Shown here in pieces: positions 869 to 61,205 of a stretch of DNA of 64,000 nucleotides. The translations under genes were made by a program, and so were the position numbers. The stretch's first letter is position 1. Every line of letters begins with the position of its first letter. Source of the stretch: Sipunculus nudus (Eukaryota > Annelida > Sipuncula > Golfingiida > Sipunculidae); assembly GCA_026874595.1 (NCBI GenBank), contig CM049318.1, forward strand, positions 61,352,250 to 61,416,249. Direction: 5' to 3'. The notes beneath the pieces were generated by a model, which searched no databases, was not told where the DNA came from, and saw only the letters and a program-made list of their open reading frames with translations.

Positions 869-1140
869 CAATTAAGACCTGTCAACGCTTTAGGATGACG
901 CTTCACGTCAATATCAATAGAGAACAGACTTCGTTAAACTATGATACAAAACACCGTACATATTGTCACCGATTTCTGGTGACACCCTTGTTGACCTACT
1001 TTTGACCAAACAACACTTCCTGAACTTAAAAATTTTTACAAAATTTAACAAATGTTTCTAATTTGCCCCAGGCGGGGGCATTCGTGTCGTTCTGACACAT
1101 CTAGTTTTCTAAATTTTTAGCTAAGCTGACTGTAAGTCAA

Positions 1141-1167
1141 TGTCCGTCTGTCTGTCTGTCTGTCCGT
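1141..1167 (+). repeat. (GTCY)n microsatellite in family A
   Basis: GTCT/GTCC repeats lie just inside the 5' end of the family A element. The same kind of repeat sits at the same relative place in the A copies at 19053, 30069, 44770 and 51195, so it belongs to the element. Confidence 0.85.
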
Positions 1168-2444
1168 TAGACTGGCACGTTTTGAAACTGTTAGACCTAT
1201 GAATCCAAAATTCGGCATACTATTAGATGTCCCCAAAATCTCCTACCATACTAAAAATTGGGTCAATATGACTTTGTTCTTTCGAGATATTTAGGAAAAA
1301 CCTCAAATTTCCATTAAAAACCTATTATCACACTTCAGGACTGCCTAATATCAAAACCACTTATCTGTTTTCTTAATATTTACCAGAAGTAATCTCCTAT
1401 ATATTTCCTATATACATGCCAGAAATCAAGTCGTTTAAATTTAATTTTTTGAAGTTTTTGGCCCAAACATAATGGACTTTGCAAAAAATCAGGAAAAATA
1501 TTTATTCACTTAACATGAAAAATTTTAAAACTAGAGACTATTTTCCATAGAATATAACTATGTTTAATTAAGATACAATTGTTTACCAAAAATAAGATCT
1601 GAATTTTGTAAATTTTTTAAGTAATAAGCATTAAAATAAAATCAGTACCTTAAATTTTGCCAAACTTTGACCATGGCACGGTTTTTTTCCTGTAAGCACT
1701 GTGGATTTAATTTTCACAGCATGTGCACAAAAGGATATATTCTGTTAAAATCTGAAATTTGAAAATAAAAGCTGCAAAATTAGGCTGGTTATTGAATTTT
1801 TTTTGGAGGCTCTTGTTGTATTCCCTTATATTGTCAAGCAATCCACTTTGGTCACTGTAGGTCATTCAGTGCAGCTCTCTATGCTCCCCAGGCTGTTGGC
1901 ATAATGTTATGCAATCCCATCACTAGGGCAAGCCCTCTCTCCACTAGTTTACCTTGATCAGGCTGTCTGCAGTTAATTCCATACCACAGGGAGCCTTTTT
2001 CTCTCTACCCCCCCCCCCCCCCCACCCCCCTTGACAGACCTGTACTATGAACTAGATGAATCTTAAAATCAAATTTTTTTCAGCAACGAGCAGAAACAAC
2101 AGAGACCTCTACCCCCACCCACCCCTTCAATACACAGGACTAATAAACAAGATGAATCTTATAATTTTAATGTTAAATAAATTCTTTTTGATGAGACTTG
2201 GACAATTTTGATTATTTTAAAGAAAAAATTTCAGGAATTTAATCCTAATATTCAAATGTGATAAAATATTAGGATCTAATGTAAGTGCTAACTGACAAGA
2301 TTTAAGAAGATATAAATACTTAGTAGCATTTCATTCATATCTCAAAGTTGGCATGGCCTAGGTGTGAATAACACTGTTAACTTAGAAAATTAGGAATAAT
2401 GGTCAATTTTTGTGGGATTAATTTTTAAATCATATTGCCATATA

Positions 2445-3855
2445 CCGTAAAATCTCCACTTAAAACCGCACTTCCGATTAAAACCGCACCCAGACTTCGC
2501 CGAAATTCCAGGCGAGACACCGCGAGGGGCTCAAATACTAAAAACCCCCCTTTAAAACCGCACCAACATTCGCTACGGAATGATTTGACAAAAGACACAA
2601 TCAAGCTATCATCTAGAAATGAACACGCGTAGGTTGCGACTCGGCCATTTCTGTCAACTTTAAAATTCTTTGGGCATTTTATTTAAACACATCATAACAC
2701 TTTTTTGCAGGTCACTCAAGCATGAAGTTTGGGAAGACGTAAGGGCCGGTAAACCTCTGCCTGTTTATACAGATTTTATATTCCATGCCGTATTCTTGTT
2801 TGCTACTGATTTGTCATTATATTTTGGAAAAAATATTCTGCTGATCCATTTCAAGTCACTGTATATTTTAATTCTAAAAGTAATATTTTGAAATCTTAAT
2901 TTTTGATGAAAATTCCATTTTCTGGAATTACTCGGAAGATTCGAATCATTTTCATACCGGTTACTTCGGTATTATCATCGTCACATTGTACGTTGACATC
3001 GCTCCATGTCACAATTTGCTGGTGCATTTGAAAACATCGCTAGTCAACTTAACTAAATATCAAAATAACTGAAGTTACCTTGTCGAGATACGCACGTATA
3101 GGAAACATGACGCTTGAAAACGAGTGATTTTACGGTAAAATTAAAGTGGCCAGTCGGGGTAAGCAAGTTTTTTTCCTGAAGAAAGTTTCCGTGTGGGGAG
3201 CCATTTTGTCAAGGCAGTGTTCGCGCAAGGCACGCTGGGACGAAATAGGTGGCTGTTCTGTTTACCACCCACCGCGTACAGCCGTTCAAAACATTCTTAG
3301 CAGAATACCGGGTCGTTTCAGCACATGGCGGCACTCAAACTTGATTTTAAAACGATCGTCTGCCATTGTGTGACTCTTTACGATGTCAGCTTTTTGTTCA
3401 TCTTACGTTTTAAACAAATAATCATTGCTAAATAATGCCGCAAATGGGTTTTAAGTAGGCTTTTATTTCAATTTTGCTTGACCATGCCCAACAACGTGGG
3501 CCGCTGTGTGTTACAGCAGGGTTGTTGTAAACGTATAATTTGGTGACAAGTACTAAGATTTTATAACAAGTTATATATCACACGAAAACTAATCAGCAAT
3601 ATTTAATTTACAAATAACAAATAATCATTAATAATACATTTACACACGGCTCCCATGCATGCGAGACTGCTGCTAAGAAAGGCCTTCGAAAGTTGCAATA
3701 TTATCGCCCACTCGCCGGCCCAAAAACGATGTCTGTCGGGAAGATATTCAGGAAACCCTTCTAGTATAAACCGCACAGTGCTTTCAGGAAATCAACCTGA
3801 TTTCAAGATTTTGAATTTCTTGATTAAACCGCGGTTTTAAGTGGAGATTTTACGG
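2445..3855. mobile_element. Tc1/mariner-type terminal-inverted-repeat element, copy 1
   Basis: A perfect 25-bp inverted repeat (2445-2469 and 3831-3855) begins CCGTAAAATCTCC. The element is flanked by TA on both sides (2443-2444 and 3856-3857). A second copy at 24858-25776 shows the TA duplication against an empty site. TA targeting points to the Tc1/mariner superfamily, and the TIR style suggests a pogo/Tigger-like group. The 1,411-bp interior has only short, unrecognised ORFs (2435-2632, 3146-3373, 3655-3840), so it is probably non-autonomous. Confidence 0.8.
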
Positions 3856-4138
3856 TATTTAATTTTTGGAAACTTAATTACCTTCACACATTATTTGTTT
3901 ATGAAATGTTACTTTTATATAACACTTACCGTAGGCCGATTTGGTCCCTTGGTGCATCACTAAATGGTTTAGCTCATGTCCATTATTCTATAATTTACAG
4001 TGTTTCATTTTAGCAGGGCCATTTTCTCATAGCTTTTCTAATGATAATATACATGAAAAACCAAAAGTTATCAAAATATTTTGCAGTTGCTAATATTTTC
4101 CAAAATTCAGCTGAGCGATGTGACCCATGGGTCCCTTG

Positions 4139-4354
4139 TTTCTGAATCTTTCAGCATGTTTTTCTCTATTTTTAAGACCTTTAAAGATGCAGTTGTCTGT
4201 TAACAGGGCACAAATTGTTACCACTGAGTCTTAATGAACTTGAGCTAATATGCATTAACTATGATGTCACCTACATAATCTTAATCAGTTGCCTGTGCAA
4301 GGATATAGTGTCAACCTGCCAGTTGGCTGAGCGTCATGACCCTTGGGTCACTTG
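4139..4354 (+). mobile_element. Family A remnant with a second 3' end
   Basis: This holds a fragment of the A tandem unit (CTCTATTTTTAAGACC then TGTTAACAGGGCACAAATTG) and ends with GGCTGAGCGTCATGACCC and CTTG (4351-4354). It is a second A-type 3' terminus just 216 bp after the first. The same double-terminus arrangement occurs at 34164/34336 and 61069/61200. Confidence 0.55.
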
Positions 4355-5698: not shown

Positions 5699-7230
5699 TT
5701 TTTAGCGAACCTGTGAGCTTATGTGATGGCATATTGTTGTCTGTTGTTAGCCCAAGGTCATCTGTACGTTAACCCATGCTATCTGAGAAACTCTCAGAAC
5801 TAGCAGCTCCGAAATGCATGTAAGAATCAGTCACATGTCAAAATTTATCTGCTTGAGCTTATTTTTTGGGGTATCTATTCCAGCCAAATTGTCGAATATA
5901 TTTCACAGAAATAGTTCCAGAAACAATCTCTTAGGAGTTTGTTGGAATGGTTCCAGTTTGGTGATTTTTGGCCAAGTAACAGGAAGTTGAACTTGTCATC
6001 TGTCCAAAAAAGCATACTAAAATTTCAATCTCAAGATTCTCAGAAACTGTAGCTATCATCACCAAATTTTATGCCAGTGTTGGTCACATGAGTCATATCT
6101 GAAATTTAGGTATTGGTGGCGCCACCTGCATCAGCCTTTTTTGTACGGGGGTCATCAGTGCCTGTATCATACTGAGGGCTACAATAAACTTTTCTCTAAA
6201 GCCGTATGGCTAAATTGTTTAATATCGCACAGAAATGATCCTAGGGTAGTGCTCTCTGAAGTTTGTTCAAATGGTCTCTGTTCAGCGACTTTTGGCTGAG
6301 TTATGGTAAGCTGAATTTAGTCATATGCCATAGCAGACAATTTTAGCTCAGTGGCTACAGAGATCTTTTCAACTTGAAAACCACAGGGCCAAATTCTTAA
6401 ATTCCAAATATTAATTATCCTCAGATGTTGATAATTAAAGTTTGTTCAAATGGTTTTGGTTCAGTGATTTTTGGCTGAGTGTTGTCAAGCTGAACCAAGC
6501 TGCTCTTATTGTATCTCCCTATGTGAGTTATAAACCTGCAAAATGTTTTTCGACTGACACCACTGAAGCCAATTTGTTTAATATTTTACAAGAATAATCC
6601 CAAGAAAAATTCTTATAATCATTGTCTTTAATAGTTCCACATGAATGATTTTTGGCTGAATTATGGAGATTGAATTGAGTTATTTTACCATATTAATAGC
6701 TGTTTGAAGCAGTTACATCTAGCCTTGCACCAGTTTATCAGCATCTATTACATCATGCCACTGGACATCTGGACATCTATGGTTAATATTTACAAGCATG
6801 TTTTTTAAAAGCCTTAAAAAATTAGATTTATGATTTAAATTAGTTATTATACCAAGTAATGTTATCAACAATGGGTATGCAGCTCTCTTTGGCTATATAA
6901 AGACAGCTGTTCATGGATTATAAATATCCATACTCATCTTAATTCAAGACTTTGCCATCAGTGAGATGTATCTGTAAATAAATTTTGCATTCTGCAATAA
7001 TTTTTCATAAATTCCTTGTTTCTTTTTGTATAAAAAGTCCGCTAAAAAGCATTTTGTATTGGGGAAATTTATTTCAAAGATAATTCAAGTAGGGACCACT
7101 TTCATGTACAGATGGTAGCTTTTGGTTAACCATTGGCAGATTGCCAAGATTTGCCAGTGCCTGGATGTTGGCCACTGGCCAAGATTATGTCAGCTCTATA
7201 AATAGCTTAATGGCTCTGTACATAACTATA
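5699..7230 (+). mobile_element. Family B element, copy 1
   Basis: It begins TTTTTAGCGAACCTGTGAGC. The 11-mer GCGAACCTGTG (5705-5715) is the inverted counterpart of CACAGGTTCGC found at B 3' ends (34484-34494 and 36919-36929). The body has repeated phrases shared with the other B copies, including a unit with GGTGGCGCCACC at 6115-6126 and TTTTTGGCTGAGT phrases at about 120-bp spacing. About 7026-7220 matches 34520-34690. No 3' terminus is present here, so the copy is incomplete. Confidence 0.55.
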
Positions 7231-8929: not shown

Positions 8930-10280
8930 AAATTAGCGAACCTGTGAGCTTATGCGATGGTGTGGCGTCGTCCGTCGTCTGTACGTTAACCCATACTATC
9001 TTGAAAACGGCAAGAGGTAGCATCACGAAATTTTATGCAAAAATTTAGTCATCTAAAAAACTATATCGGATTTTGCTTATTTTTTGGCTAACTGCATTTT
9101 CTTAGATTTTATAGGGAAAAGCTAAAAAAGCTTTAAAAATCTTCTTCTCCGAAACTGTTCAGCCAAATTGTCCAATATTTCACAGAAATGATTCCTGGAA
9201 CAATCTTTCTCAAGTTTGTTTGAATGGTTTAAGTTCGGTGATTTTTGGCCGAGTTACAGGAAGTTGAACATAGTCATTTGTCCAAAAAGGCATACTAAAA
9301 TTACAATCTCAGAAATGGCTGGAGCTATCATTACCAAATTTTATGTCAATGTTGTTCACATGAGACATATCTGAAATTTAGGTAAAGGTGGCGCCACCTG
9401 CATCAGCCTTTTTTGTACGGGGGTCATCAGTGTCTGTATCATACTGACGGCTACAAAAAACATCTTCTCTGAAACTATATGGCCAAATAGTTTTATATTG
9501 CACAGAAATGATCCTAGGGCAGTGCTTTCTGAAGTTTGTTCAAATGGTCTCAGTTCAGTGACTTTTGGCTGAGTTATGGGAAGCTGAATTTAGTCATATG
9601 CTGTAACAGCCCATTTTAGCTCAGTGGCTACAAAGATCTTCTCCTCAAAAACCACTGGGCCAAATTCTTAAATCTCACACATTAATTATCCTTAGATGTT
9701 GATAATTCAAGTTTGTACAGATGGTTTTGGTTCAGTGATTTTTGGCTGAGTTATGAGAAGCTTAACTTAGCCATTTTGCTGTATTTTCCCATATGAGTTA
9801 TAAACCAGTAAAACGTTTTTTGACTGAGGCCACTGAGGCAAATTTGTTTAATATTTTCAAGAATAATCCCCTGAATAATTCTTATAATAATTGTCTTTTA
9901 TGGTTCCAAAGAATGAATTTTGGCTGAATTATTAGGATTGAATTGAGTCATTTTACCATATATGTTAGCTGTGTGAAGCAGATACATCTAGACTGGCACC
10001 AGTTTATCAGCATTTATTACATCATGCCTCTAGACATTTAGATTTCAGGTTATCTATGGTTAATATTGACAAGAATGTTTTTTAAAAGCTTTAAAAAATG
10101 TAGATTTATGATTTTAGATATTCCTCATGCCAGGCAATGTTTACAATCACAGGTATACAGCTGTCTATGGGTATATAAAGACGGCTGTACATGGTATCCA
10201 TACTCAACTTAATTCAAGATTTTGCCATCAGTGAGATGTATCTGTATTACAATTTTGCATTCAATATGCATCAGTAATAA
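8930..10280 (+). mobile_element. Family B element, copy 2
   Basis: It starts with a slightly decayed TTAGCGAACCTGTGAGC and follows the copy at 5699 closely: GTACGTTAACCCATACTATC, CCAAATTGTCCAATATTTC, then GGTGGCGCCACC at 9387-9398. It ends exactly where another B 5' end starts at 10281, so the two copies are head to tail without a 3' terminus between them. Confidence 0.6.
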
Positions 10281-10965
10281 TTTTTAGGGAACCTGTGAGC
10301 TAATGTGATGGTGTGGTGGCATTTGTCTTCTGTACAATAACCCATACTATTTTGAAAATTATTGGAGCTAGCATCATGAAATTTAATGCATAAAAATAGC
10401 CATCTCAAAAACTCTGCATTTTCTTAAATTTTATAGAGGAAAAGCTAAAAAACCCTTTAAAACCTTCTCCTCTGAAACACCCAAGCCAAATTGTTCAATA
10501 ATTCACAGAAATAATCTTTTATACCATCTCCCTCAATTTTGTTCTAATGGTTCAAGTTTGGTGAATTTTGGCTGAGTTACAGGAAGTTGAACTTAGTCAT
10601 CTGTCCAAAAAAGCATACTAAAATGACTGTCTCAGAAACGGCCGGAGCTATCATCACCAAATTTTTTGACAGTGTTGGTCACATGAGTCATATATGAAAT
10701 TCAGGTATTGGTGGCGCCACCTGCATTGACCTTTTTTTGTATGGGGGTCATTGGTCATCTTTTATTATTCTAGATATTTTGATAAAAAGTTTATGAATAT
10801 GTCAGCTTGAAAAAAAAATTTTAGCCAAAGTCTTTCAGTATGTGTAAACAGATATACCAGCAGGCCAAGATTGAATCCTTATCTTTAAATAGGTTGAGAA
10901 ACTGCCAACTGTTTCAGATTTGGCAACAGATCAAGAGTTCATTCAGTGCAGCCAGATATAGAGCT
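10281..10965 (+). mobile_element. Family B element, copy 3, truncated
   Basis: It starts TTTTTAGGGAACCTGTGAGC (one base changed from the usual AGCGAACC). It includes a GGTGGCGCCACC near 10710 and ends in the CAACTGTTTCAGATTTGGCA / CAAGAGTTCATTCAGTGCAG block, which also occurs at about 28685-28740. Confidence 0.55.
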
Positions 10966-13310: not shown

Positions 13311-13314
13311 CTTG

Positions 13315-20615: not shown

Positions 20616-20646
<31 letters not shown>

Positions 20647-20657
20647 GCAGTCCAGCT

Positions 20658-20699
<42 letters not shown>

Positions 20700-20724
20700 C
20701 TTTTTCTCTTTCTCTCTTCATCTT

Positions 20725-20773
<49 letters not shown>

Positions 20774-23953: not shown

Positions 23954-24006
<53 letters not shown>

Positions 24007-34336: not shown

Positions 34337-34513
34337 TTGTGTTGTGTGCACCCATGCCAGAATTTCATTAGTGATGTTTGTGTAATTGTTTCTTATTCAA
34401 AATGTTTAGTACCTGCCTTGGTCTATATACATTAGAAGTCATGGTCCAGCAATGAAGCATTATACCTGGTATATTTCCCAATGCACAGGTTCGCATTAGG
34501 CCTGTAGGCCTTG
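34337..34513 (+). mobile_element. Family B 3' end, copy a
   Basis: GCACCCATGCCAGAATT..ATTATACCTGGTAT leads to CACAGGTTCGC (34484-34494), the inverted form of the B 5' GCGAACCTGTG. It is followed by the short palindrome block AGGCCTGTAGGCCT and CTTG (34510-34513) before TTT. This defines the B 3' terminus. Confidence 0.7.
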
Positions 34514-45408: not shown

Positions 45409-48102
45409 CAGGGTTCGTGCGCAGTCTTACAAAGTCTTACAAAGTCTTACTTTTCATTTTGCAAAAATAAGGCCTTAAAAAGTCTTACTTTTCTTACATT
45501 TTAGAGGCTAGATCTTACAAAAGTCTTACTTTTTGTATCACAGAAACTGAAATAATTTTTGAAAGAGGCAAATAATTGGATACCATAAACATGAAAGTAG
45601 CTAATTTTTCAAAGCTTGTTCCCGTATTTAACTGCATGTCAGACATCATCTGCACATTCAGACTACCATGGGTCTCATGACCATAGGGGCACCTGCGGAG
45701 TATTTTCAGTGCGGACAACTCAGAATAAATGCGAATCGGAACACATGCTTTAACAAGTTTCAGTGGCGTGAAAGGGGACTCGAAAGTTGTGCGCCAGTTC
45801 ATCTCCAGTTATTATGGTATTTTCCTCTGCTGTACACTTTCCCTAAATCATGTAAATCTCTGCAGTTTCTGCATGTCGGTAGATGTGCATTCACTTTGTT
45901 GGGAACTGAAAGTAACGACGCGCTGTGTTTGTTGACATTGCAAACAAAGTAGAAGAAATTCCGGAAACTATGACTTAATCATGAAAGAGTTTGACCCTAA
46001 AAAATCACTTGAGTGTCTTTTTTTTTGTTTCATGTTTGCTATGCAGGTTCATGTATATGCAGGTTCATGTATGAATATTGACAGCACTGAAAAAGTTAAT
46101 TTTTTTGCTTGACTCAGGCACATCAGGATATAGCGGGGCAAGGACCATTAACAGGTGTTTGAAAGCGCAATGGGTCTATTTGGACACGTGCTTGAAACTG
46201 GAAGTTGAAATAAATACTTGTGTGTGAATTGGTGTACAGAAGATGCATCAGTGATTTCTAAACCAGCCAGCATTAATATAACCCTGAAAGCCAGAATATG
46301 GCATGAACTGACATGGGTTTTCTGTAACTCTGCATGATTTAGGCTCGTCCTGCTCGTCGACATACCTGTGAGCTCAATTTTTCCAGGAAAGATATCGATG
46401 GGGTTTGAATGTTTGTCCCATTAGAAGTTAATACATTTGAATATTTACGTCGATAGTCTTGTGAAATATATCGTTGACAAATTTACCGCCTTTGTGGTCA
46501 AGGACATCTTTTCGGGCACATATGACCATTGTTTAATTAATTTAATTGACTTAAAATCAGCTACAGTGAATCATATTTTGTCAAATTTACGGTATTTAAG
46601 TATGAGCTACTTCAGGCTGCTTTGAAAAATTGGAGCGCGGGAAAGTACAACGGTGTTACCATTTTGTGTATAGGCCTAGATCGGTGAGCTTACACTGCAT
46701 TTATATAGCAAGTTATAAGTCTGTAAAATATGTTCAAAATTTTTGAGCATTGAAATAACGCTCTATAATTGCACCGCAGATGCACATCTAATTTCTGTAT
46801 GGCAATAAATGCATTCGAATTAGAACATTTTTAATTACGTATTGTGCCCGCGTATGCAACGGAGCATATATATCGGTGTCAGCAATGATGGGCCTATAGG
46901 CTGTATCACCAAATAAGGCCTACTGCATGTATCATAAACTCGGTATTTGCAAAATATGCATGACCATCAAGAAATCTATTACTTATCGTAAATTATTTTT
47001 TATCATATTGCTCTCGTATATATCAGAACTCATTTTGCCCACGTATTATACGGTCTGCCCGATGCAAACGATGTCAGTGTCATCCAACTGCATTTTTCCA
47101 AACGTTTCCCCGTAAATTTTTGAACGTCCAAGCACACCTGCTCTCTTTACAAATGTCTCACTCTTGAAGGGGACACGTGGTTTTTGCAGTTGATCATGCT
47201 AATACAGAGGTATTTCGAAAATATACATGAAGATCAAGAAATCTATATTTTGTTGATCATAAATTAATTTTTATCCTATTACTCTCGCATTTCAGAACAT
47301 GTTTTGCCCACATATTACGGTCTGCCTGATGTAAATGATGTCAGTGTCTTCCAAGTACATTTTTCTAAACGTATCCCCATGGATTTTGGAACGTACAAGC
47401 TCACTTGGTCTCTTTACAAATGCCTCGCTCTTTGGCGGGATACCTGTGCTATTACAGCAGGATATCCAAGGGTTTCAAATTGGAAACTGGTCACTCTCTC
47501 GGCTTACACCTTACGGTAATGCGTCAGAGAATATGCCATCATATCAAATTTACCGCTGCATTGTTTTTTTTTGCGGATATTCTCCGAACTCGAGTGAAGG
47601 AAGTTATCAGAACACGTCCATGAAAATGTTTGACTGGCTTGCACGTGTTCTTTGATTTTTGCGGGAAAATGAAGTGCCAAGGGACAAAGTGGGGCCTGGC
47701 GATCGTGGGGCTGCAGATGTCAAGTTACAACATTGCCGTTCTACGGCTGACCACTGTTTATAGATATGGAAAACTTAAGTGACAGATTTATGGATAAAAA
47801 GATGCATGCTTTGCCATGTATAATATAGGCCTACGGGAATGAACTCCGCTCGTAACGACATATCTATATATAAAAGTATACGGCATCAGCCGGCAAAAGA
47901 GTAGAGAATATACAGGCATGTAAATGAAGGCCTATTTATTTATTTATGTGTCATTTGAAATTTGGATGGGTATTAAAACGAATATATTTTATATAGGGTT
48001 TGTATTTACCATGAGAAAATGGTCTCATTTTTCACGAAAAAAGGTCTTACAAAGTCTTAAAAAGGTCTTACTTTTTTAAATTGAAAAGGCGCAAGAACCC
48101 TG
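45409..48102. mobile_element. hAT-like element with 5-bp target duplication
   Basis: Ends CAGGGTTCGTGCGC and GCGCAAGAACCCTG are inverted repeats (13 of 14). AGACT is duplicated at 45404-45408 and 48103-48107. Sibling A units read TGCAGACTGGTGG with one AGACT, confirming the empty site. Near both ends lie direct GTCTTACAAAGTCTTAC repeats in the same orientation. The interior contains a tandem duplication of about 260 bp (about 46965-47165 against 47227-47425). ORFs up to 106 codons are unrecognised. Confidence 0.75.
46965..47425. repeat. Internal tandem duplication of about 260 bp in the hAT-like element
   Basis: Matching blocks include ATCAAGAAATCTAT, TTTTGCCCAC, TACGGTCTGCC, GATGTCAGTGTC and CTCTTTACAAATG in the same order. 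The two halves have diverged clearly, so the duplication is old. Confidence 0.75.
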
Positions 48103-48713
48103 AGACTGGTGGCGCCACCTGTATTTTTCGATTCTTTACGAATTGTTTTCTCTATTTTTGAGACCTTTAAAAATGTGAACATCTGTTAACAGGGCACAAA
48201 TCGTAAAGACTGGACCTAGAATCCTCATTCTTGACACAGTGAGAGACTTATGAAAAGTCTCCATGGAAACCTGAAATTAGGTCTCTGTTACCCATATCCT
48301 TTGAGCTATGGCACTCCAAAGTACAGCTCAGAATAATGGAAAATTTGATACATAAGCTAAAGTATCTGAACAACTAATGCAGAGATCACCATAATTGTTT
48401 GCATGGATATTGATCATGGAGTGTTTCATCAGTTACTGCAGACTGGTGGCACCACCTGTATTTGTTCAGGTTTTTTTACGAATTTTTTTCTCTATTTTTG
48501 AGACCTTTAAAGATATGAACATCTGTTAACAGGGCACAAATCATAACAACTGGACCTAGAATCTTCATTCTTGACACACAGGGAGACTCATGAAAAGTCT
48601 CCATGGAAACCTGAAATTAGGTCTCTGTTACCCATATCCTTTAAGCTGTATGGCTCCAAAATAACCCCCAGAATAATGAAAAATTTGATACATAAACTGC
48701 AGTATCTCAATAA

Positions 48714-51155
48714 CTAGACATTTCTTGGCACTGCAGGTGCCAGAGTATCCCCAGACATAATAGCCCCCCCCCCCCCTTCAAGAATAGACCCCCATTTTTA
48801 GCAGCATATACTGACACTTGGCATATTTATTGTTTCTTCCATCTAACAATCAACAATCTTGTTGAAGATGTTGGTCCTGTGACCTTGGTCTTTTTAAAGA
48901 TGTGTCCTGTGACCTTGACCTTTGACCTCATGACCCCAAAATCAATTCGGGGCTTGCTTTCCAATGGGACATATACAAGTCAAGTTTGAAATCCATACAT
49001 CAATAAAAGATATTATCATCCAGAAACTAATTTTTGGACAGATGGCTCCTGTGACCTTCACCATTGACCTTGTGACCTCAAAAATTGATAGGGGTCTTCC
49101 ACTCTTGGTGAACTTTATGTGCAAGATGAAAGATCTGAGATGAATTGTTTGGCTGAAAATGCATCCACAATCTTTTTGAAGATGTTGGTCCTGTGACCTT
49201 GGTCTTTTTAAAGATGTGTCCTGTGACCTTGACCTTTGACCTCATGACCCCAAAATCAATTGGGTTTTGCTTTTCCAATGGATCAAATACAAGTCAAGTT
49301 TGAAATCCATACATCAATAAAAGAAGATATTATCATCCAGAAACTAATTTTTGGACAGATGGCTCCTGTGACCTTCACCTTTGACATTGTGACCTCAAAA
49401 TTGATAGGGTTCTTCCTCTCTTGGCAGGTGAACAATATGTGCAAGATGAAAGATCTGAGATGAAAGGTTTGGCTGAAAATGCATCCACATCTTTTTAAAG
49501 ATGTGTCCTGTGACCTTGACCTCTGACCTCATGACCCCAAAATCAATTTTGGTCTTGCTTTTCCAATGGGACATATACAAGTCGAGTTTGAAATCTATAT
49601 ATCAATAAAAGCAGGAATTATCATCCAGAAACTAATTTTTGGACAGATGGCTCCTGTGACCTTCACCTTTGACGTTGTGAACTTAAAATTGATAGGGGTC
49701 TTCCACTCTTGGCAGGTGAACTATATGTGCATGATGAAAGATCTCAGATGAATTGTTTGGCTGAAAATGCATCCACAATCTTTTTAAAGAGGTTTCCTGT
49801 GACCTTGACCTTTGACCTCATGACCCCAAAAACAATTCAGGTCTTACTTTTCCAATGGGTCAAATACAAGTCAAGTTTGAAATCCATACATCAATAAAAG
49901 TAGGAAGTATAATCCAGAAACTAATTTTTGGACACATGGCTCCTGTAACCTTCACCTTTGACCTTGTGACCTCAAAATTTATAAGGTTCTTCCTCTCTTG
50001 GCAGGTGAACTATATGTGCAAGATGAAAGATCTGAGATGAAATATTTGGCTGAAAATGCATCCACAATCTTTTTAAAGATGTGTCCTGTGACCTTGACCT
50101 TTGACCTCATGACCCCAAAATCAATTTTGGTCATGCTTTTCGAATGGATCAAATACAAGTCAAGTTTGAAATCCATACATCAATAAAAGCAGGAATTATC
50201 ATCCAGGAACTAATTTTTGGACAGATGACTCCTGTGACCTTCACCTTTGACCTTGTGACCTCAAAACTGATAGGGGTCTTCCTCTATTGGCAGATGACTT
50301 ATATGTGCAAGATGAAAGGTCTGAGACGAAATGTTTGGCTGAAAATGCATCCACAATCTTTTTAAAGATGTGTCCTGTGACCTTGACCTTTGACCTCATG
50401 ACCCCAAAATCAATTGGATTCTTGCTTTTTCAATAGGACATTTATAAGTCAAGTTTGAAATCCATACATCAATAAAAGCAGGAATTATCATCCAGAAACT
50501 AATTTTTGGACAGATAGCTCTTGTGGCCTTGACCTTTGACCTTGTGACCCCAAAATTTATATGGATCATCCACTATTGGCAAGTGAGCTATATATTCAAG
50601 ATGGAAGATCTAGGATGAAAGTTTGGCTTAAAAAATCCACAGTATCTTTTAAAATGCCAGTCCAGTGACCTTGACCTTTGACCTCATGACCCTAGAACCT
50701 ATAGGGTTCTTACTTTAGTGGTGGGCCATACATAAGTCATGTTTGAAATCCATATGGCTATCAACACTGGAGATATCATAAGAGGTGTGTAATTTTCACC
50801 ATATACGGCAATATTCAAGGACAAGGCCACTATCATAGGAAAGGTCATGACCCCAATTTAAATAAACATCATCCCATATAACCCATACCTATGTATATGC
50901 ATAATATAAAAGAAATCTGTACATTAGTTTTTGACTTATAATGCTCACAGTACTGTAAAGTGGCAATTTTGGGGGTATTAAACGGCACGAAAACAAGTAA
51001 AGAATAATAGGTGGCGCCACCAGTTTCTGGAATATGACAACCCTTTCCATGATCTTCCATCAACTTGATTTTGGGATAAATCCATGCAAGATTTCTTGAG
51101 AATTTGTGTGATTTTCCCCAAAATTGGACCTATTCAAGGTCAAGTACACTCTCCT
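48714..51155 (-). mobile_element. Family C element on the minus strand, 5' truncated
   Basis: Read on the minus strand, it ends with GTCTGGGGATAC (48745-48756), the hairpin TGGCACC..GTGCCA (48726-48742), AAGAAATGT and CTAG (48714-48717) before T. It starts inside C sequence near 51155 without the GTATCCCC end. The body is an array of about 289 bp, then a C unit with GGTGGCGCCACC at about 51011. The orientation is opposite to the other C copies here. Confidence 0.7.
48890..50700 (-). repeat. Tandem array of about 289 bp with AGGTCA half-sites
   Basis: Units start at CTTTTTAAAGATGTGTCCTG near 48893, 49206, 49492, 49780, 50071, 50360 and (changed) 50637, with steps of 286-313 bp. Each has GACCTTGACCTTTGACCTCA, and most have a second block GACCTTCACCTTTGACCTTG. 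On the minus strand these are AGGTCAAAGGTCAAGGTC clusters. Six or more 60-73 codon ORFs recur in step with the units and are by-products of the repetition. Confidence 0.9.
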
Positions 51156-51194
51156 AGTAAAAAAGTGAAATTAGTCCAAAATGAATATATTACA

Positions 51195-53061
51195 TTTTTA
51201 GCTCAGCTGACTATAAGTCATCTGAGCTATAGTCGTGGTCCATTGTCCGTCGTCCGTCCGTCTGTCCGTCCGTCCGTCCGTCCGTCCGTCCGTCCGTAGA
51301 TGTGGCACGTTTTGAAACCGTTAGACCTAGGAATCCAAAATTCAGCATAATGTTAGATGTCCCCAAGATCTCCTACCAAGCTGAAAACTAGGTCTTTGCG
51401 ACTTCGTTCCTTTGAGAAATTAAGGAAAAACCTCAATTTTTTATTAAAATCCGATTTTCACACTTCAGGACTGCCTTATATCAAAACCACTCATCTGTTT
51501 TTCCTCATATTTACCATAAATATTCTTCCATATAGTTCCTATGTACATGCCAGAAATTAAGTCTGTTAAGTATAAATTCTTTAAGTTATGGGCCCAAACA
51601 TAATGGACTTTGTAAAAAATCAGGAAAAATATTTACTAACTTAACATGAAAAATTTTGAAACTAGAGTCTATTTTCCCAAGTATATAACTATGTTTTATT
51701 AAGATTCAATTGCTTACCCAAAACTAGATCTGAATTTTGTAAATTTTTTAAGTAATTAGCATAAAAATAAAATCAGTACCTTAAATTTTGCCCAACTTTG
51801 ACCATGGCACGTTTTTTTCCTGTAAGTACCATTGATTTAATTTTCACAGCATGTAAACATAAATATTTAATTTGTTTAAATCTGAAATTTGGAAATAAAA
51901 GCTTGAAAATTAAGCTAGTTATTGATTTTTTTCTTGAGGCTCTATTGTAGTCATTTGCTTTGATTAGAGGTTACAGATGCAGGGTCCCACTCCAGGTCAC
52001 TGGAAGTCAGCTATGTCAGGGTTTCTGATTTGTTACAGTCACTGGGGGAGATCCCCTGCTGTGACAGGTGTACAGTAATTCTCATATCACCACCCCAATC
52101 ACCCCCCCCCCCCCCCCCAACCCAACCCACCAAGTGTTATGCAGTATTGTTATTGTTTTCACTGTATCTCCTTAATTGTAATGCTGTTTCCACTCTGATA
52201 TGCAAAAACTTTCCTTGAAAAAGTAATTCAAGGTGTAATCCAGAAGATGCAATGTTGTGTAATGTAGCATTTTTAAAGAAATCATTTTTCTTTTAAATCA
52301 TTTTACCAATCATAATGGAACCCATCAGTATGCTTAAATTATGATAAAATATGAAGCACATTATGGATAAATAAAGACACAATTAAAAATTGTGAAATCT
52401 AAATCAAGTATTTTTTTTAGATATTTATTGTTTTGCAGATTTAAAAGATATATTTTTGTGGTAGAAAATAAATAAACATTTGAATGCATGATGTGGTGTT
52501 ATCTGACAAGATTGAGATTTATGATGATGCAATTGAGAATTATGAATCAACTTTTATATTCAGATATATATGTTATATTGAAAATGTATAGGAATATAAA
52601 CTTAAATTTTAAAAAAAAAATTGATGTGATAAAAAAATGAGGATTTATTACAAACATTTGTTCATTATTTTCCTGCATCAGCAGAATTTGAGATCAGGCT
52701 TTGTTTGCCATGTTTTATGTTGTTAATTAGTTATATTTCAACTGTATACATTTCATAAAAAACATATATTTAATAATATATATTATACAAAAAAAAGATT
52801 TGATCGAACAAATGTGTAAACTACTGAAATGTCAACAGTTTATCGAAAAGCCAACTAATGATCATGGTAATTGTACAGATCATTTGTTCACATACTGCTC
52901 ACATGCTTCAGTTTCAACATTAGGAAACACAAACCAATCATATAAACCAACCATGGCCTTTATTACCTCTTCCTCTTACACTTTATCTCCATTTGATATT
53001 ATTTTAGATTTTTACCTTCAAGGTTAACGTCAGCTGAGCACAGTGACCCATAGGTCCCTTG
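51195..53061 (+). mobile_element. Complete family A element
   Basis: TTTTTAGCTCAGCTGACT with its stem is followed by a long (GTCC)n tract (51245-51298). GCTCAGCTGA (51201-51210) has a perfect inverted copy TCAGCTGAGC at 53030-53039. Then come GTGACCCATAGGTCCC and CTTG (53058-53061) before TT. The first 700 bp follow the copy at 1114 closely. It includes a C run near 52100-52118. The length is 1,867 bp. Confidence 0.75.
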
Positions 53062-54345
53062 TTTTTTAATATGAATAAAAGCCATAAAACCAGGTACTTA
53101 TGATCATTATTTAAATGTGTGAATTTTGTATATTCTGGATTCTCAACATCATTGTTTGGTGAAAACTGAATAAATACCAGACATGGTGCGAATACTTTTC
53201 AATTGTATTTAAACATGAATATGAATATGTACTCCATTATAAAATTTCTTTCATAAGAATGGGAATTCAGGTAAAAATGAAAGTATATGAATACCAGTGC
53301 AAATACTTTCAAAATGTATAAATGAATCCATTCATGAATATATTCTTTAATATTATTTTAATAATCATATCAGTTATATTTCATTTTAAAAAATCATGAT
53401 TCTCTTATTATTTTTAATAAAAATTATATTTGGGACAATATTTGTAATTTTTTTAATAAATAGTTAAACTCTTATATTATATGTTCTGCTTATAAGTTAT
53501 ATGGCCAAGTCTAAATCTGTGTGACAATCGCACTCCATTTGTTAATAAAATAAATGAAATTAATCCTCTTTCCTGTCTCCAAAGGTACAATCAAAATCAT
53601 ACATAAGCTAAACAACAACAACTCATAACACAGCTTATTTTTATTACCACATAAAACCAGCATGTGCCTCATTTCTAAATCATATTTTTTTAACATATAT
53701 AACAGCTGAACGCCGTGACCCATAGGTCCCTCGTTTTAAAATTCAGGAAATATATTTTCTCACTTAACATGAGAATTGCTGAAGCTGGAGATTTTTTTTA
53801 CAGGGATATAACTTTATTAAATCAAGATTCAATTGTTAATCCAAAATCATATCTGAATTTTGCAAATTTTTTAAGTTATTAGCATAAATAAAACACCTTA
53901 AATTTTGTTCAACTTTGGCTACAGCACGTTTTTCCCCTGTAAGCACTGTTGATTTATATTTCACAGCTTATATACATAATGATTTAAAAAGAAGCTTTTA
54001 TTCAAGTTTTCATTCCCCATGTCCAATGTTGTTTACATCAGGCCCACCTTGTAGTACAGCCTTCACTTGTATTATGTAACCCTCTCCAGGAAGCTTGCCT
54101 TGGCTCAGCTTGGCCACTATTAGCAGGCTTCCCCTCTGCCCTGCACTCTCCCCCCCCCCCTCCAGCTGGTGCTTAAACTAGATGAATGTCATAATTTTCT
54201 GTATTTGATTCATTCTTATTCTAGGCTGTGCTACATTTTAGATTTTGTATTGTACCGCCAGGGTTACAATTATTAAAGTGCAAATTTAATTGTGTCCACA
54301 TAGTGGTGTATTGCTATATGAAAGTGTGGATGTTCATCAGATAAG
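53062..54345 (+). mobile_element. Family A fragments
   Basis: A 3' end CAGCTGAACGCCGTGACCC then ATAGGTCCC lies at 53703-53733. 53740-54345 matches the interior of the copy at 19053 (about 19455-20110), including AACATGAGAATTGCTGAAGC, TAAGCACTGTTGATTTAT and GGATGTTCATCAGA. No 5' end is seen. 54346-54631 shows nothing recognisable. Confidence 0.55.
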
Positions 54346-55623
54346 TAATTTCTTTATTTCTAAGAGTAAAAACTTCACCAGGTGAGAAATCGACTATAAA
54401 TTCCAGTAAAAAAATATAGCTGAGATACTAATTAGCACAATGATGATGTTTGTCCCTCATTCAACTAACAGTGTGTATACTTTATTTGAAAAGATGGTTT
54501 TATTTTATCAGATTAACTGAATCTTTTATATCGGTGAATAAAATTAAGCATGTACTGAAAGCTCCAATGTACCAGACTGTTTGATAGTGATTCAAGGAAT
54601 ATTCTTGAAGATGCAATGTTGTGGCATTATTGTATCCCCAGACAAAGTCGGGATACTATGGGTTCACGCGGTCCCCCCGCCGCCGCCACCGCCTGCAGAA
54701 AAACCTTGTGAGCAGGATAACTCAAAAAATATTTCCCTGATCTTTTTCAAACTGTACATTTGTATAGGTATAGGTAAGGGGACGAACCCTATTTAAAATG
54801 GGGTCACGACCTATGCTAGGAGAATGACCTTGACCTTGAATAGGTCCATTTTTGCTGAAAATAACACAAATTCTTAAATATATCAAGTAAGCTTGCATGA
54901 ACTGGTCCAAAAATCAAGGTGACTGAAGATCTTGGATAGCCTTGTGATATACCGGAAACTGGTGGCGCCACCTATTATCCTTTTCTTGTTTTTACGCCTT
55001 TTAATACCCCCATCATTGCCACTTGACAGTACTGTAAGCATTATAAGTCAAAAACTAATGGACAGATTTCTTTCATATTATGCACATGTAGAGAGATGGG
55101 TTATGGGATGAGGTCTATTTACATATGGGTCATGACCTTTACCATGAGAGTGGCCTTGACCTTTAATGTGTCCATATTTGGTGAAAATCACACACCTCTT
55201 ATGATATCTCCAGTGTTGATAGCCATATGGATTTCAAACATGACTTATGTATGGCCCACCACTAAAGCAAGAACCCTATAGGTTCTAGGGTCATGAGGTC
55301 AAAGGTAAAGGTTACAGGACTCACATCTTAAAAGATACTGTGGATTTATTTTAAGCCAAACTTTCATCCCAGGTCTTCCATCTTGAATATATAGCTCCCT
55401 TGCCAATAGTGAATGATCCATATCAATTTTGGGGTCATAAGGTCAAAGGTCAAGGCCACAGGAGCTGTCTGTCAAAAAATTAGTTTCTGGATGATAATAC
55501 CTGCTTTTATTGATGTATTGATTTCAAACTTGACTTGAACAATTCAAGGATTTTTTATTGATTTCAGCAAACAGCCGTGAGTCGCTACAGCTTAAAAGCC
55601 CCCACGGCTCTAAGAACAATTAT

Positions 55624-55636
55624 AGGTCAAAGGTCA
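55624..55636 (+). promoter_or_regulatory. Perfect DR1 in the LINE 5' region
   Basis: AGGTCAAAGGTCA is two AGGTCA half-sites one base apart, the consensus for RXR, HNF4 and COUP-TF type nuclear receptors. It lies about 90 bp from the 5' end of the LINE. Binding is inferred from the motif only. Confidence 0.4.
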
Positions 55637-56194
55637 ATCGGCAACCCTAGAAGTTCGTAAATCAGCCGGTAGATGTCGCCCGAAATAAAACAAAGGAACG
55701 AACTTCCGGCGGTCGATTAATCTTGATAAATGATACTTTAACGAGCCTTTAAAGATATATATATATACTTGTTTCATTATTTGATCTTTAAGATAAACAA
55801 CGTGAAGGTGAGTCGTCAATTTTGTATATTAAACATACTATGCAAAAGAATATAATGAAAATTTAGGCGACTCATCATCCGTTGTAAAGGAAACAGAACC
55901 GAACCTGTCGGATGTAAACCTCAAAGCTCAATCAAGGATTAAACTTTTAAAGCATACAAAATCAAACTTCTTATCTAATGCTTTTATGATACTACTGAAC
56001 TTGTTACTATTACTCTCTAACCGTTCTATCTGGTAACATATACGGTTATTATCTATATTTTACTATCTAGAATATTTATATAAACCTAATTCTAAGATCC
56101 TAACTTCTATACTTTTGACCACAACTGTTACCTCCAAACAGTCGCTCTTTAGTTCCCTAGTGGGTTAATTATTATTATTAATTTTAATCAAAGC

Positions 56195-56293
56195 ATGTCA
56201 AATGAAGCAGACATATTAAAAAACTTTGGAGGAATAGCCAACAATAATTTATCAAAAATCTTAAATTCAATTGAAAACAAGACAGATAAATAA
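56195..56293 (+). CDS. Short ORF before the LINE endonuclease
   Basis: 32 codons, starting at the first ATG after a long A/T-rich leader. It ends at TAA (56291-56293). It is in the same frame as the endonuclease ORF that follows, with nothing but this stop between them. It may be a short ORF1 remnant, or the start of the main ORF cut off by a nonsense change. It has no recognisable domain. Confidence 0.4.
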   Translation: MSNEADILKNFGGIANNNLSKILNSIENKTDK

Positions 56294-59200
56294 TACACAC
56301 ACACAATCCAAAACCCGAACTCATTCTACTACACTACAGATACACTTAACCAAACCTTAAAACAACCAAATAAATTTACATTAATATCACTGAACTGCCA
56401 AAGCATAAATGCAAAACATGACAAAATATCACTACTACTAGAAGAACTAATATCAAATAATATCGAAATCAGTGCTCTATGCTTACAAGAAACGTGGTTA
56501 CAAAATGACTCGGACATAAGTACACTACAACTAAACAATTATAACTGCATACACAAAGGCAAACACTGCACAGAACATGGAGGACTAATAATATATCTAC
56601 ATAAAAAATTTAAATATGAAATATACCAACCAATTATCAAAACAGAAAACTGGGAGGGATTATTTATAAAGGTAAAGATACCTGAGACAAATAAAATTAT
56701 CAAACTAGTCAATATATATAAACCACCATATAATAATAATATAGAAGACATCAACCAATTTATTGAAGAACTAACTATGCATCTCTATCACATCAATAAA
56801 CACAACTCAGACATAATTATAGCTGGTGACTTTAACATAGATCTACTCAAAATAAAAACCAAAACAGCACACCGTAACTTTTTGGAATCAGTACACGCAC
56901 ATGGACTTCACGCAAACATAACCATACCGACCCGCATCACAGACACCTCAGCTACACTCATCGACAACTTATTCTCAAACGTCCCACCACGCCACAGCCA
57001 GTCAGGTGTTCTTATTAACAACATATCTGATCACCTACCATGTTACATATCCATAATTATAGCTGCTCAATACAAAAAAACTAATAAACAACACTACAAC
57101 CTCAGGCGCAACATCACCCCACAAACCATAAACTCCCTCCATAATGACTTGACAAACGCTAAAATTGTTGATAAAATAAGTCTAGACATGTCCTCTAACC
57201 CAAATATAAATTACAATATTCTAGAAAATATTCTGACTCAAGCAATAAATAAAAACATGCCTTTAAAGAAAATAAAATTTTACAAATACAAGACAAAAAA
57301 AACAAACTGGATAACTTTTTGGACTCATTAAATCAATCAAATATAGAGATACATTATATAAATCAATGAGAGCTGCAGAAACAAATAGCATAGAATTCAC
57401 AATAAAAAAACACCAACTTAGACAATACAATAAAATTCTTAAAAAACAATACTTGAAGCAAAACAACATTACTACAACAATAAATTCAATAAGACTAAAA
57501 CAGATATTAAAAAAAACATGGGAAACAATCAATGAAATAATACAAAGAAAAGAGAAAAAAAGCCTTCCCGAATACGTAATAATTAAAGGCGATAAAATAA
57601 ATAATCCCACAAAAAATAGCTAATCATTTCAATAATTTTTTTGGCAATATAGGAGTAAAAATGGCAAACAAAATAAAAAACAGTCACAAAATAGACTACA
57701 AGAAATATCTAAACACACAAAAAAAGCAAAGTACAAACATTAAAAACCTTTTAACTTTTAAACATGTAAAAGACACGGAAGTACAAAACATAATTGACAA
57801 TCTCAAGCCAAAAAATAGTACAGGATATGACGATCTTTCCAGTAATCTACTTAAGAAAATTAGTCCTGCCATTATCAGACCTCTTAGTATAATCATAAAT
57901 CAGTCACTCACTACAGGTATATTTCCTGATAAACTAAAAATAGCTAAAATAACCCCTATTCACAAAAAAGAATGTATTCATGAACCTGAAAATTACAGGC
58001 CAATTTCACTATTACCAACATTTTTCAAAATTATTTGAAAAACTAATATACAATCAATTATACGACTTTCTTCAAACAAATGCCTTAATATACACCAGCC
58101 AATATGGATTCAGAAAAAAACACTCGACCGAACACGCAATATTAGAATTAGCAGACAGACTATATAAAGAAATAGACAATGGAAATATGCCACTCGCAAT
58201 ATATTTAGACTTATCAAAAGCATTCGACACCTTAAATCATGACATATTAACACATAAACTAAAATTTTACGGTATTAAAGGAAAAACTCTACTATGGCTT
58301 ACTAACTATCTAACTAACAGAACGCAATACGTTGATTACAAAGGACACAAATCAAATAAACTTCCAATAAACACTGGGTCCTCTATTGTACTTAATATAT
58401 ATGAATGACATACATCAATGCAGCAACTATTTTAATTTCATACTATACGCTGACGATACAACATTATTTAACCCCTTGGCAAGTTACAACAAACTAAAAG
58501 ACCAACACATCATCAACAAAGAATTAAATAAAGTACATAACTGGTTAAATGCTAATAAACTCTCATTAAATCTACAAAAAAACAAAATTTATGATCTTTC
58601 ATACTAAACATAAAACTCTAAAAGATGGAAGCCCTGATCTCAAAATTGATAAAACACCAATAGAAAGGGTATCAGATTTCAATTTCTTGGGTATAACAAT
58701 AAATGAACACATGAAATGGCAGACACACACAAACAAAATTGCATCAAAAATTTCAAAATACATAGGAGTACTAAATAAATTAAAACAATACCTACCAATA
58801 CACATACTTAAAACCATATATGATACACTTATTCTGTCTCAATTAAATTACGGAATCCTAATATGGGGTTCTGACACAAATAGATTAGAAAAATTACAAA
58901 AAAAAAAGCCTTAAGAATAATTACAAATAACAACTACAATGCACACACAGAACCAATCTTTAAATCATCAAAAACCCTAAAAATCAAGGATATTTTCAAA
59001 TTAAACATAATAAAATTTTATTATAATTATTGTCCTGCAGCACTTCCAAAATTCTTCCTAACGTTTAATATATCGACAAGAAACATGACGCACAGACACA
59101 ACACAAGACACAAAGACACCCTAGCTACAAATAAAACAAGAACCAAAATAGCAGACAATAGTCTGTGGAACAAAATACCAAAAGTCATAAATGAAACTGA

Positions 59201-59330
59201 CCATAACATTGCTGATAAAATCTACACCCACAGCCTCCAAGGATTAATTAATTACACCAAACAACATTTTATAAATACATACAAAGAAAAATGCACACAA
59301 ACAAACTGCTACATCTGTAACAAAAATTAG
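56294..59330 (+). pseudogene. LINE endonuclease/reverse transcriptase, frameshifted
   Basis: The endonuclease part is open from 56294 to 57331. It shows LNCQSINAK near its start, LQETW, a GDFN motif (56825-56836) and SDH (57026-57034), as in APE-type LINE endonucleases. The RT part spans about 57661-58914. It has NYRPISLLP (about 57990-58016), GFRKKHSTEHA, LDLSKAFD and the catalytic YADD (58446-58457). The C-terminal part runs to 59330 and ends with a CxxxxCxxC-like Cys pattern. The frame changes near 57300, 57615, 58020, 58380, 58580 and 58900. The stretch where RTs normally carry their conserved Pro-Gln-Gly motif (near 58378) is disrupted. The coding strand is A-rich, with few GC-ending codons. 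Confidence 0.88.
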
Positions 59331-59625
59331 AATTTTTCGTTGTTTTTCCTTTCCTCCATTAACAAACAAACATATAAATACCCATTAATTCTTTCAATCT
59401 CCTTCACTATTTTTGTAAACAATTATTATCATCTAATTGTAAATGTATCAAACATGTTCAATCATCCATATTTATATAGTTATATATACTTTCTTATACC
59501 AAATGTTTGCAGGTGGCTGTTGTGTCAGCGGGAAAAAAATCCTTACATCAGTCTCCTGACATAGTAAAAACGAAAATATAAACAATTGAATATACAATAT
59601 ATGGATATGTGCAATTTTATGTCGA

Positions 59626-59629
59626 ATAA

Positions 59630-59631
<2 letters not shown>
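59626..59631 (+). terminator. AATAAA signal at the LINE 3' end
   Basis: An AATAAA hexamer lies directly before the (TTC)n tail, where a LINE RNA end would be expected. Confidence 0.5.
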
Positions 59632-59632
<1 letters not shown>

Positions 59633-59660
<28 letters not shown>

Positions 59661-59664
59661 CTTC
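59633..59664 (+). repeat. (TTC)n tail of the LINE
   Basis: About ten TTC trinucleotides form the 3' tail of the retrotransposon in place of poly(A). Confidence 0.9.
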
Positions 59665-60350
59665 TATATGTCCCATTGAATAAAGCAAGACTCCAATTGA
59701 TTTTTGGGTCATGAGGTCAAAGGTTAAGGTCACAGGACACATCTTTAAAAAGATTGTGGATGCATTTTCAGCCAAACATTTCATCTCAGACCTTTCATCT
59801 TGCACATATAGTTCATCTGCCAATAGAGGAAGAACCCTTTCAATTTTGAGGTCACAAGGTCAAAGGTGAAGGTCACAGGAGCCATCTGTCCAAAAATTAG
59901 TTTCTGGATGATAGTTCCTGCTTTTATTGATGTATAGATTTAAAACTTGAATTGTATATGTCCTATTTGGAAAGCAAGCCCCGAATTGATTTTGGGGTCA
60001 TGAGGTCAAAGGTCAAGGTCACAGGACACATCTTTAAAAAGATGTGGATGCATTTTCAGCCAAACATTTCATATCAGATCTTTCATCTTGCACATATAGT
60101 TCACCTGCCAAGAGAGGAAGAACCCTATCAATTTTGAGGTCACAAGATCAAAGAAGCAGGTCACAGGAGCCATCTGTCTAAAACTTAGTTTTTGGATGAT
60201 AATTCTTGCTTTTATTGATGTATAGATTTCAAACTTGACTTGTATATGTCCTATTTGGAAAGCAAGCCCCGAATTTATTTTGGGGTCATGAGGTCAAAGG
60301 TCAAGGTCAAATGACACATCTTTAAAAAGATCAAGGTCACAGGACCAACA
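59665..60350 (+). repeat. Family C tandem units downstream of the LINE
   Basis: Two to three units of about 290 bp, the plus-strand equivalent of the array at 48890-50700. Blocks such as GAGGTCAAAGGTCAAGGTCA start near 60002 and 60292. They are followed by CATCTTTAAAAAGAT and GCATTTTCAGCCAAAC. Confidence 0.8.
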
Positions 60351-60504
60351 TCTTCAAAAAGATTGTGGATTGATAGATGGAAGAAACAATCATTGCTTGC
60401 CAAGTGTCAGTATATGCTGCTAAAAATGGGGGCCTGTTCTTAAAGGGGGGGGGCGTACTATGTCTGGGGATACTCTGGCACCTGCGGTGCCAAGAAATGT
60501 CTAG

Positions 60505-61036
60505 TTTTCTTTTAAATTCAGTTTAAACATTTGCGATTTAAAAATAATAAAAATTTATGTGTATGCATAATATGACCCGATACAAGGTACACTCTGGATA
60601 AATAATGAGTGCAACTTAGAATTCTGATATTTTAATTTATATTTTCAGATTTTTTATTTCAAATTTATAAAACTTGTAAATAAAAAAAATGAATATGATA
60701 AAAACTGTTAATGGAACAAGTGGATATGCTTAATAAATAGGCTTAAATGTAAAATTAAAGCATTATACCCTTGAAAGTGAAATAAAGGTATTAGTCCATT
60801 CTGTCCACTTGCCTGTCCATCTGTAAATTTTTCATATGCATCCCAGTATCTCAAAACTTTTACTGTTTTTCTTCATGACAATCTTGTCAGAGTATTAGTT
60901 TTGCAATCATATATTTAGATCTTTACTTTAACCAAGTAAGAGGGTCACTTTCCTCTTAGCTTCTCATATGCTTGTATATATGAAAAACCTAACAATAGAA
61001 TATTTTGCATATTTTGTATTTGGAAAAATTTCAAAC
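60505..61036. other. No recognisable feature
   Basis: AT-rich unique sequence without a supported ORF or repeat. Confidence 0.5.
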
Positions 61037-61205
61037 TTCAGCTGAGCGCCGTGACCCATGGGTCCCTTGTTTAAAAGATTGTTGCAATAATCTAAATGCT
61101 GCAAGTTCAAGGATATTGTTATTGTTTAAGGTCACAGGACCATCATTCATGAAAATTAAAAAAAAAATATCCTTACAGATAAATTCAGCTTAATTTCCTT
61201 GTTGT
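61037..61205 (+). mobile_element. Family A 3' ends, paired
   Basis: TTCAGCTGAGCGCCGTGACC then CATGGGTCC and CTTG (61066-61069) is followed by TTAAAAGATTGTTGCAATAA. A decayed second end (AAATTCAGCTTAATTTCCTT) follows near 61180. The segment between the two ends matches 34167-34310, so this paired arrangement exists at two loci. Confidence 0.6.

Follow-up and report, generated by a model that had tools for sequence, protein, structure and literature searches.

Four repeat families of Sipunculus nudus with one Helentron-like end plan, and Rep-helicase units bearing the ends of one of them

Helentron-associated elements (HINE/DINE-1) are described as having subterminal inverted repeats (subTIRs), a 3' stem-loop, a T-rich target with an extra T of uncertain origin, and a descent as deletion derivatives of autonomous copies (PMC4067079). 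Cg_HINE of the oyster Crassostrea gigas possesses subTIRs of 11-12 bp with an inverted arm in the left flank, a GTCC-type microsatellite in several members, central satellite-like repeats, a 3' subTIR followed by a palindrome, and TT insertion sites without a target-site duplication (TSD), and unrelated families occur side by side (PMC7492417). These features, the 3' hairpin less uniformly than the others, have their like in four repeat families, A, B, C and D, found in a window of 64 kb (the whole stretch of Sipunculus nudus DNA analysed here) on contig C13 of an assembly of 1.43 Gb in 153 contigs; the likeness to the oyster elements is one of description. The oyster HINEs carry satellite-like arrays through their genome, and their mobilising partner was left unresolved in the available parts of two reports: none of ten oyster autonomous elements was relatable to the HINEs in one (PMC7492417), and no autonomous elements were detected in the other (PMC7992393). 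In contrast, the A ends were tied here to a Rep-helicase unit.

Families A to D are very probably non-autonomous Helentrons (HINEs, Helitron2 group). The link of A to a Rep-helicase partner was supported by a common 3' end, common monomers and, in one copy, the 5' end, and similar machinery is inferred for B, C and D. As the end plan is already known, these families are additional Helentron/HINE members; what they offer is a high-copy HINE group linked, within one genome, to Rep-helicase units whose copies are 95-99% alike. The partner question had been left open for the oyster relatives; here a probable partner is available for the A ends only, and in the literature searched no publication was recognised as connecting a HINE of molluscs with the element that moves it. 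The A system provides a concrete case in which to test what parts of the ends are required and by what route arrays come to be captured.

End design of the four families

An earlier note on this DNA, made from the letters alone, had proposed that the four families share one Helentron-like end plan, and a scan of both strands of the window, with looser patterns for copies that stricter ones missed, confirmed it, all eight proposed motifs being present at the implied places. In this plan a 5' motif stands after a T-run and has an inverted counterpart 19-32 bp inward of the 3' end, and the 3' terminus is often a hairpin followed by CTTG or CTAG. The 5' ends in the window comprised 7 of A, 4 of B, 3 of C and 2 of D, all on the plus strand, similarity alone pointing to one more of B near 24442; the 3' ends comprised 7 of A, 2 of B, 3 of C (one on the minus strand) and 2 of D. 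TT or TTA preceded the motif in 16 of 16 cases. The proposed termination in CTTG or CTAG before T held for all 14 3' ends as to the tetranucleotide and for 13 as to the T, the A end at 22130 being followed by A. The proposed 5' starts of A and B were moved one base outwards, since these elements begin with an extra A, after the T-run, ahead of the motif. Inverted repeats measured 11 bp in A, 11 bp in B, 12 bp in C and 13 bp in D. The four motif pairs are unlike in sequence while each remains complementary to its own partner, as is expected of functional pairing. Families C and D both have GTATCC...GATACTATG at the 5' end and, judging by this common stretch, may be related.

In the Helitron2 group, the 5' asymmetric terminal inverted repeat (ATIR) lies inside a 5' hairpin, and the 3' ATIR directly precedes a 3' hairpin, at 20-30 bp from the terminus (PMC3627910). 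The position of the 3' repeat was alike here, with 3' hairpins of uneven strength; the 5' arrangement was alike in A, C and D but not in B. On folding one sequence per family end (four copies for the D 3' end), the 5' motif paired with a nearby arm in A (z-score -3.4), C (-5.5) and D (-5.7), and no 5' hairpin was seen in the one B sequence folded (z +0.3). As for the 3' hairpins anticipated in A, B and C, that of C was strong (z -3.75, one sequence) and those of A and B were modest (z -1.4 and -1.8, one sequence each). In D, where the hairpin had been called weak at best, it was not seen in the two window copies (z -0.6 and -0.5) and was modest in the copies of loci L061 and L074 (z -1.5 and -1.4). 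Canonical Helitron1 elements, with 5' TC, 3' CTRR, A-T insertion and no 5' inverted repeat, differ from A to D, which have a T-run target and inverted repeats and of whose two terminal tetranucleotides only CTAG fits CTRR.

Genome-wide, exact matches were counted against the reversed pattern as control. The A 5' 17-mer occurred 33,424 times versus 0, or about one exact copy per 43 kb; the C 5' 12-mer 8,972 times versus 51 (inverted copies counted too); the C 3' 30-mer 1,477 times versus 0; and a D 5' pattern of 32 positions, two of them free, 386 times versus 0.

Rep-helicase units bearing A ends

The genome contained at least 143 matches to PF14214 (Rep), with open frames of up to 2426 aa, and three Rep lineages, C17, C7 and X, were read in part. 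On contig C17, a Rep match and a PIF1 match each lay in an uninterrupted frame of 2342 aa on the same strand; since the frame is the same, C17 carries one Rep-helicase frame. Downstream of Rep, on the same strand, was the A 3' end GTCAGCTGAGC..GACCCATGGGTCACTTG, followed by TT. On the upstream side, A monomers were found together with an inserted D and a pair of A 5' ends. An A 5' end of C17 stands behind a T-run; the outer of the pair lies at C17:35640360, and if this outer end is its own, the unit measures about 14.9 kb. Positions 30069-31221 of the window, an A stretch, matched the C17 A array at 76% over 1188. In the part of the frame (L074) before Rep, a segment matched PF04843 (E 2.2e-12) and DUF6570, and a run of 21-aa repeats was noticed by eye. 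In Helentrons an apurinic-like endonuclease is fused to RepHel; the frames here were read ahead of their C-terminal part.

The 3' region of C17 recurred at six further places with 93-99% identity, all stopping at query positions 421-428; CTTG ends at 422 and the predicted end was 422-424. In the whole search (42 rows, 40 of 1561 candidates scored), 31 rows stopped at 420-430, 25 of them being 77-91% copies with the last 85-235 bp alone in common, and three ran 13-19 bp further. An A-monomer-plus-leader stretch was found upstream on the same strand, at 95-99%, on contigs C1, C5, C8, C9 and C10, the match on C9 covering the first 1237 bp only. Together with C17, six loci on six contigs thus have A monomers, leader and A 3' end. 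PIF1-helicase matches were present in all six and Rep matches in five (C17, C1, C5, C9 and C10), none being found for Rep at C8 among the matches listed; frames other than that of C17 were, among the same matches, shorter or broken. The distance from Rep to the 3' region was 4279 bp (C9), 4286 bp (C5), 4292 bp (C17), 4294 bp (C10) and 4335 bp (C1). Eight places matched the monomer-plus-leader query at positions 1-500 with 96-98% identity, as expected of deletion derivatives.

C17 is the single copy of the Rep unit whose A 5' end was read. With this end as query (91 rows, 40 of 11,485 candidates scored), 14 rows started at positions 87-93, which comprise the T-run plus A, and the sole row extending 5' of the T-run was the query itself. 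Consensus ends running past the proposed termini, named in the earlier note as grounds for abandoning its proposal, were therefore seen at neither side, and its reading of the families as non-autonomous and dependent for movement on related rolling-circle machinery gained support; the autonomous relatives with the same ends that it called for were found for A, at these six loci, and not for B, C or D.

A second lineage, on contig C7, has Rep and PIF1 in a frame of 1658 aa, and in 949 bp of coding DNA it is 66% identical to C17. It also ends in A; downstream, only the 35-bp A end is common to C7 and C17. Parts of the C7 tail matched the window A elements at 51201-53061 (75%) and 19059-22130 (81%). 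These matches and that of the C17 array indicate that each A interior type resembles a different Rep lineage; the name A denotes a set of ends whose interiors are of two types or more. Type one comprises the elements at 1120, 19059 and 51201 (80-86% alike over 620-720 bp), and type two those at 24089, 29445, 30075 and 44412, which have monomers of about 336 bp in common. Arrays of units of about 270-340 bp fill many copies. Among the seven A 3' ends, the 87 bp ahead of the last 33 bp were mostly unlike by eye, the exceptions being 4138 and 61069. Different interiors between the same A ends indicate that tandem arrays can be carried along. It is conceivable, if somewhat doubtful, that a pool of Rep-helicases, including ones as distant as those of C17 and C7, acts on any interior bounded by A ends of about 30 bp, with unrelated arrays being picked up and stacked 5' ends representing steps towards composites. 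Stacks of two A 5' ends were found on C17 as well as in repeats with 91-96% identity. Stacked 5' ends were also noticed in L062, L066, L070 and L078, with two of A in C17 and several of X in X1b and Y.

The third lineage, X, was represented in X1a by an element of about 24.0 kb with the ends GCTTGCCGGAA.. and ..TTCCGGCAAGCGTTCGCCCTCTGGGCGTCTAG, followed by TT, and with an antiparallel Rep frame. RepHel is likewise reversed in some Helitron2 elements (PMC3627910), and one Drosophila Helentron family has Rep in reverse orientation (PMC4067079). Of 30 Rep loci, 19 were 79-100% alike with flanks like X, and another four, on the other strand, were 80-96% alike among themselves, again with flanks like X. 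The X ends follow the plan of A to D, with inverted repeats of 11 bp and a modest 3' hairpin (z within -1.4 to -1.8), and have a different motif. Among the matches listed (up to 60 window rows per set), the X stretches read had only simple repeats in common with the window, a D insertion in X1b excepted. On these two grounds X was rejected as a direct partner of A to D. One X copy (L033) encoded OTU and DUF6570 domains. Within the window, tblastn with four partial proteins found no Rep remnants (E up to 1), and Rfam (gathering cut-offs) and tRNA scans gave no match.

Insertion sites and alternative explanations

Empty sites were sought by joining the flanks and comparing the result with the window and the fetched loci. 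Credible sites were obtained for four of 12 window constructs (D 32821, D 35238, A 29445 and B 26773), some constructs being alternative pairings of ends. Both ends were present in 12 of the 20 C loci; five of these 12 gave a spanning match and four were kept (L009, L017, L018 and L021). At all six unambiguous sites (A 29445, D 35238, L009, L017, L018 and L021) the filled site exceeded the empty one by the element plus two T, and no duplication longer than TT was seen at any empty site. The predicted insertion without duplication was thus observed for A, C and D, with the reservation that an added TT is indistinguishable from a 2-bp TT duplication. The number of T was ambiguous at D 32821 and B 26773, the latter being the one site for B. 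L017 and L018, in one repeated cluster, may represent one event, and A 29445 and D 35238 were compared with the same L001 copy. A match for L027 was rejected because the joined flanks matched the element's own 3' junction, another C 3' end lying directly upstream; around position 200 of L027, a C 3' end, TT and a C 5' end follow one another as a head-to-tail pair. A weak match of 46 bp for C 54632 (in L054) was left uncounted. The TSDs of 7-19 bp of algal CRe elements (PMC3627910) had no counterpart here.

By analogy with Helitrons, in which one strand is described as being nicked at the 5' junction, displaced up to a stop at a 3' signal and joined to the target (PMC5876387), Rep would nick a single strand at the 5' T junction and the helicase would unwind and displace one strand. 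The 5' and 3' subterminal repeats, whose pairing at termination has been proposed (PMC3627910), would act with the 3' hairpin as the stop signal, and joining of the displaced strand into a T-run elsewhere would follow.

The two T gained at the six unambiguous sites are also what a TT duplication would give, as in the older reading of DINE-1 as cut-and-paste miniature inverted-repeat transposable elements (MITEs). MITEs have inverted repeats at both extreme ends; here the inverted copies are asymmetric, one at the 5' end and the other 19-32 bp inside the 3' end, and Rep and PIF1 matches lie between A monomers on one side and the A 3' end on the other, so that this reading is highly improbable. 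The neighbourhood of A ends and Rep genes might instead be fortuitous, A HINEs having inserted by chance next to Helitron genes to which they are unrelated, given the density of A copies and the unmatched A 5' end on C17. However, one and the same 3' stretch recurred at 95-99% in six loci, as did one leader accompanied by A monomers, the Rep-to-end distances at the five loci with Rep fell within 56 bp, and the 389 bp before the C17 3' end contained neither an A 5' motif nor a match to the window, which makes chance association very unlikely. That the families are merely satellite arrays with conserved flanks, which have never transposed, would accord with the 270-340 bp arrays in many copies and is scarcely credible in view of the dispersal over many contigs, the empty sites and the precise ends.

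Several observations weigh against the assignment to Helentrons with a Rep-helicase partner. On C17 a pair of A 5' ends goes with a single A 3' end; the outer 5' end could have been supplied by an inserted A copy, and C17:35625901-35630191 lies outside the sequence read. With the C17 5'-end query, no A 5' end was retrieved from the remaining five loci (40 of 11,485 candidates scored), and the leader-to-Rep distance varies from about 4.7 to 6.6 kb. A seventh place, C17:37211172, had no Rep or PIF1 among the matches listed. No A 5' end was found within 9 kb upstream of the C7 Rep, and no end of A to D with a palindrome within 4.5 kb downstream of a Rep unit on contig C13. A partner for B, C or D was not found among the Rep units read, and no empty site was obtained for seven of the 12 window constructs or for seven of the 12 C copies.

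Elements of the window and their distribution

The elements are given in Table 1. The interval from 24.4 to 36.9 kb is read here as a nest in which B holds B, A, A and D in succession, with a second D in the outer B; D 35238 sits in the outer B at a site homologous to that of the A 29445 insertion.

Table 1. Elements of families A to D and partial copies in the window
Feature	Position	Strand	Remarks
A element	1120..4138	+	5' motif GCTAAGCTGAC, 3' end ...GACCCATGGGTCCCTTG
Extra A 3' end	4322-4354	+	no 5' end assigned
B 5' end and body	5705..7027	+	continuation is the empty site for B 26773
B copy, then B 5' end at 10287	8936..10286	+	no B 3' end between
C element, ~330-bp monomers	15751..17039	+	by its ends
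A element	19059..22130	+	3' end followed by A, not T
A 5' end and start of A monomers	24089..24441	+	A similarity stops at B 5' end
Outer B, holding nested elements	24442..36948	+	5' end by similarity; 3' end CACAGGTTCGC..GGCCTTG at 36919-36948
B nested in outer B	26773..34513	+	empty site 6969-7094, T number ambiguous
A nested in B	29445..34336	+	by its ends; empty site in L001
A nested in A, ~336-bp monomers (30172-32821)	30075..34164	+	by its ends; empty site not found (window and fetched loci)
D within A monomer array	32821..33981	+	12 spanning matches, T number ambiguous
D in outer B, 277-bp monomers	35238..36755	+	by its ends; empty site in L001
C element, 5' part	39667..40824	+	3' end not found; right limit uncertain
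A 5' end 44412 with otherwise unpaired A 3' end 61069	44412..61069	+	pairing uncertain
C element, 289-bp monomers	48714..51161	-	by its 3' end; 5' end not found
A element	51201..53061	+	by its ends
C element split by a long interspersed element (LINE, ~55538-59660)	54632..60504	+	by its ends

The LINE at 55538-59660 in C 54632-60504 contained an endonuclease frame (PF03372) and further broken frames and ended near (CTT)n. Two A 3' ends, at 34132-34310 and 61037-61190, had the same downstream flank, which suggests independent A insertions into one site of another repeat. A minisatellite at 12303-13299 consisted of about 29 units of 34 bp with 73% matches.

In the window, 16 of 17 elements lay on the plus strand (16 placed by the 5' end, the minus-strand C by its 3' end). 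T-runs had no strand bias that would explain this excess (262 T5 versus 280 A5 runs); since many of the elements are nested, it was left without a conclusion. Strand segregation along contig C1 looked strict among 100 A places listed, a list found to be incomplete because the minus-strand matches at C1:1716191 and 2056289 were missing from it. In sparse samples of C1, pairs shared a strand in 8 of 9 cases at distances up to 20 kb, in 6 of 12 at 20-50 kb and in 58 of 117 at 50-500 kb, and neighbouring pairs in 84 of 163 (shuffle p 0.37); on these samples, strand domains formed by insertion following replication forks (background in PMC5371812) were rejected. At 63713992-63743276 of C1, the minus strand has four C 3' ends spaced by 9760-9762 bp, perhaps representing a head-to-tail array or a segmental duplication.

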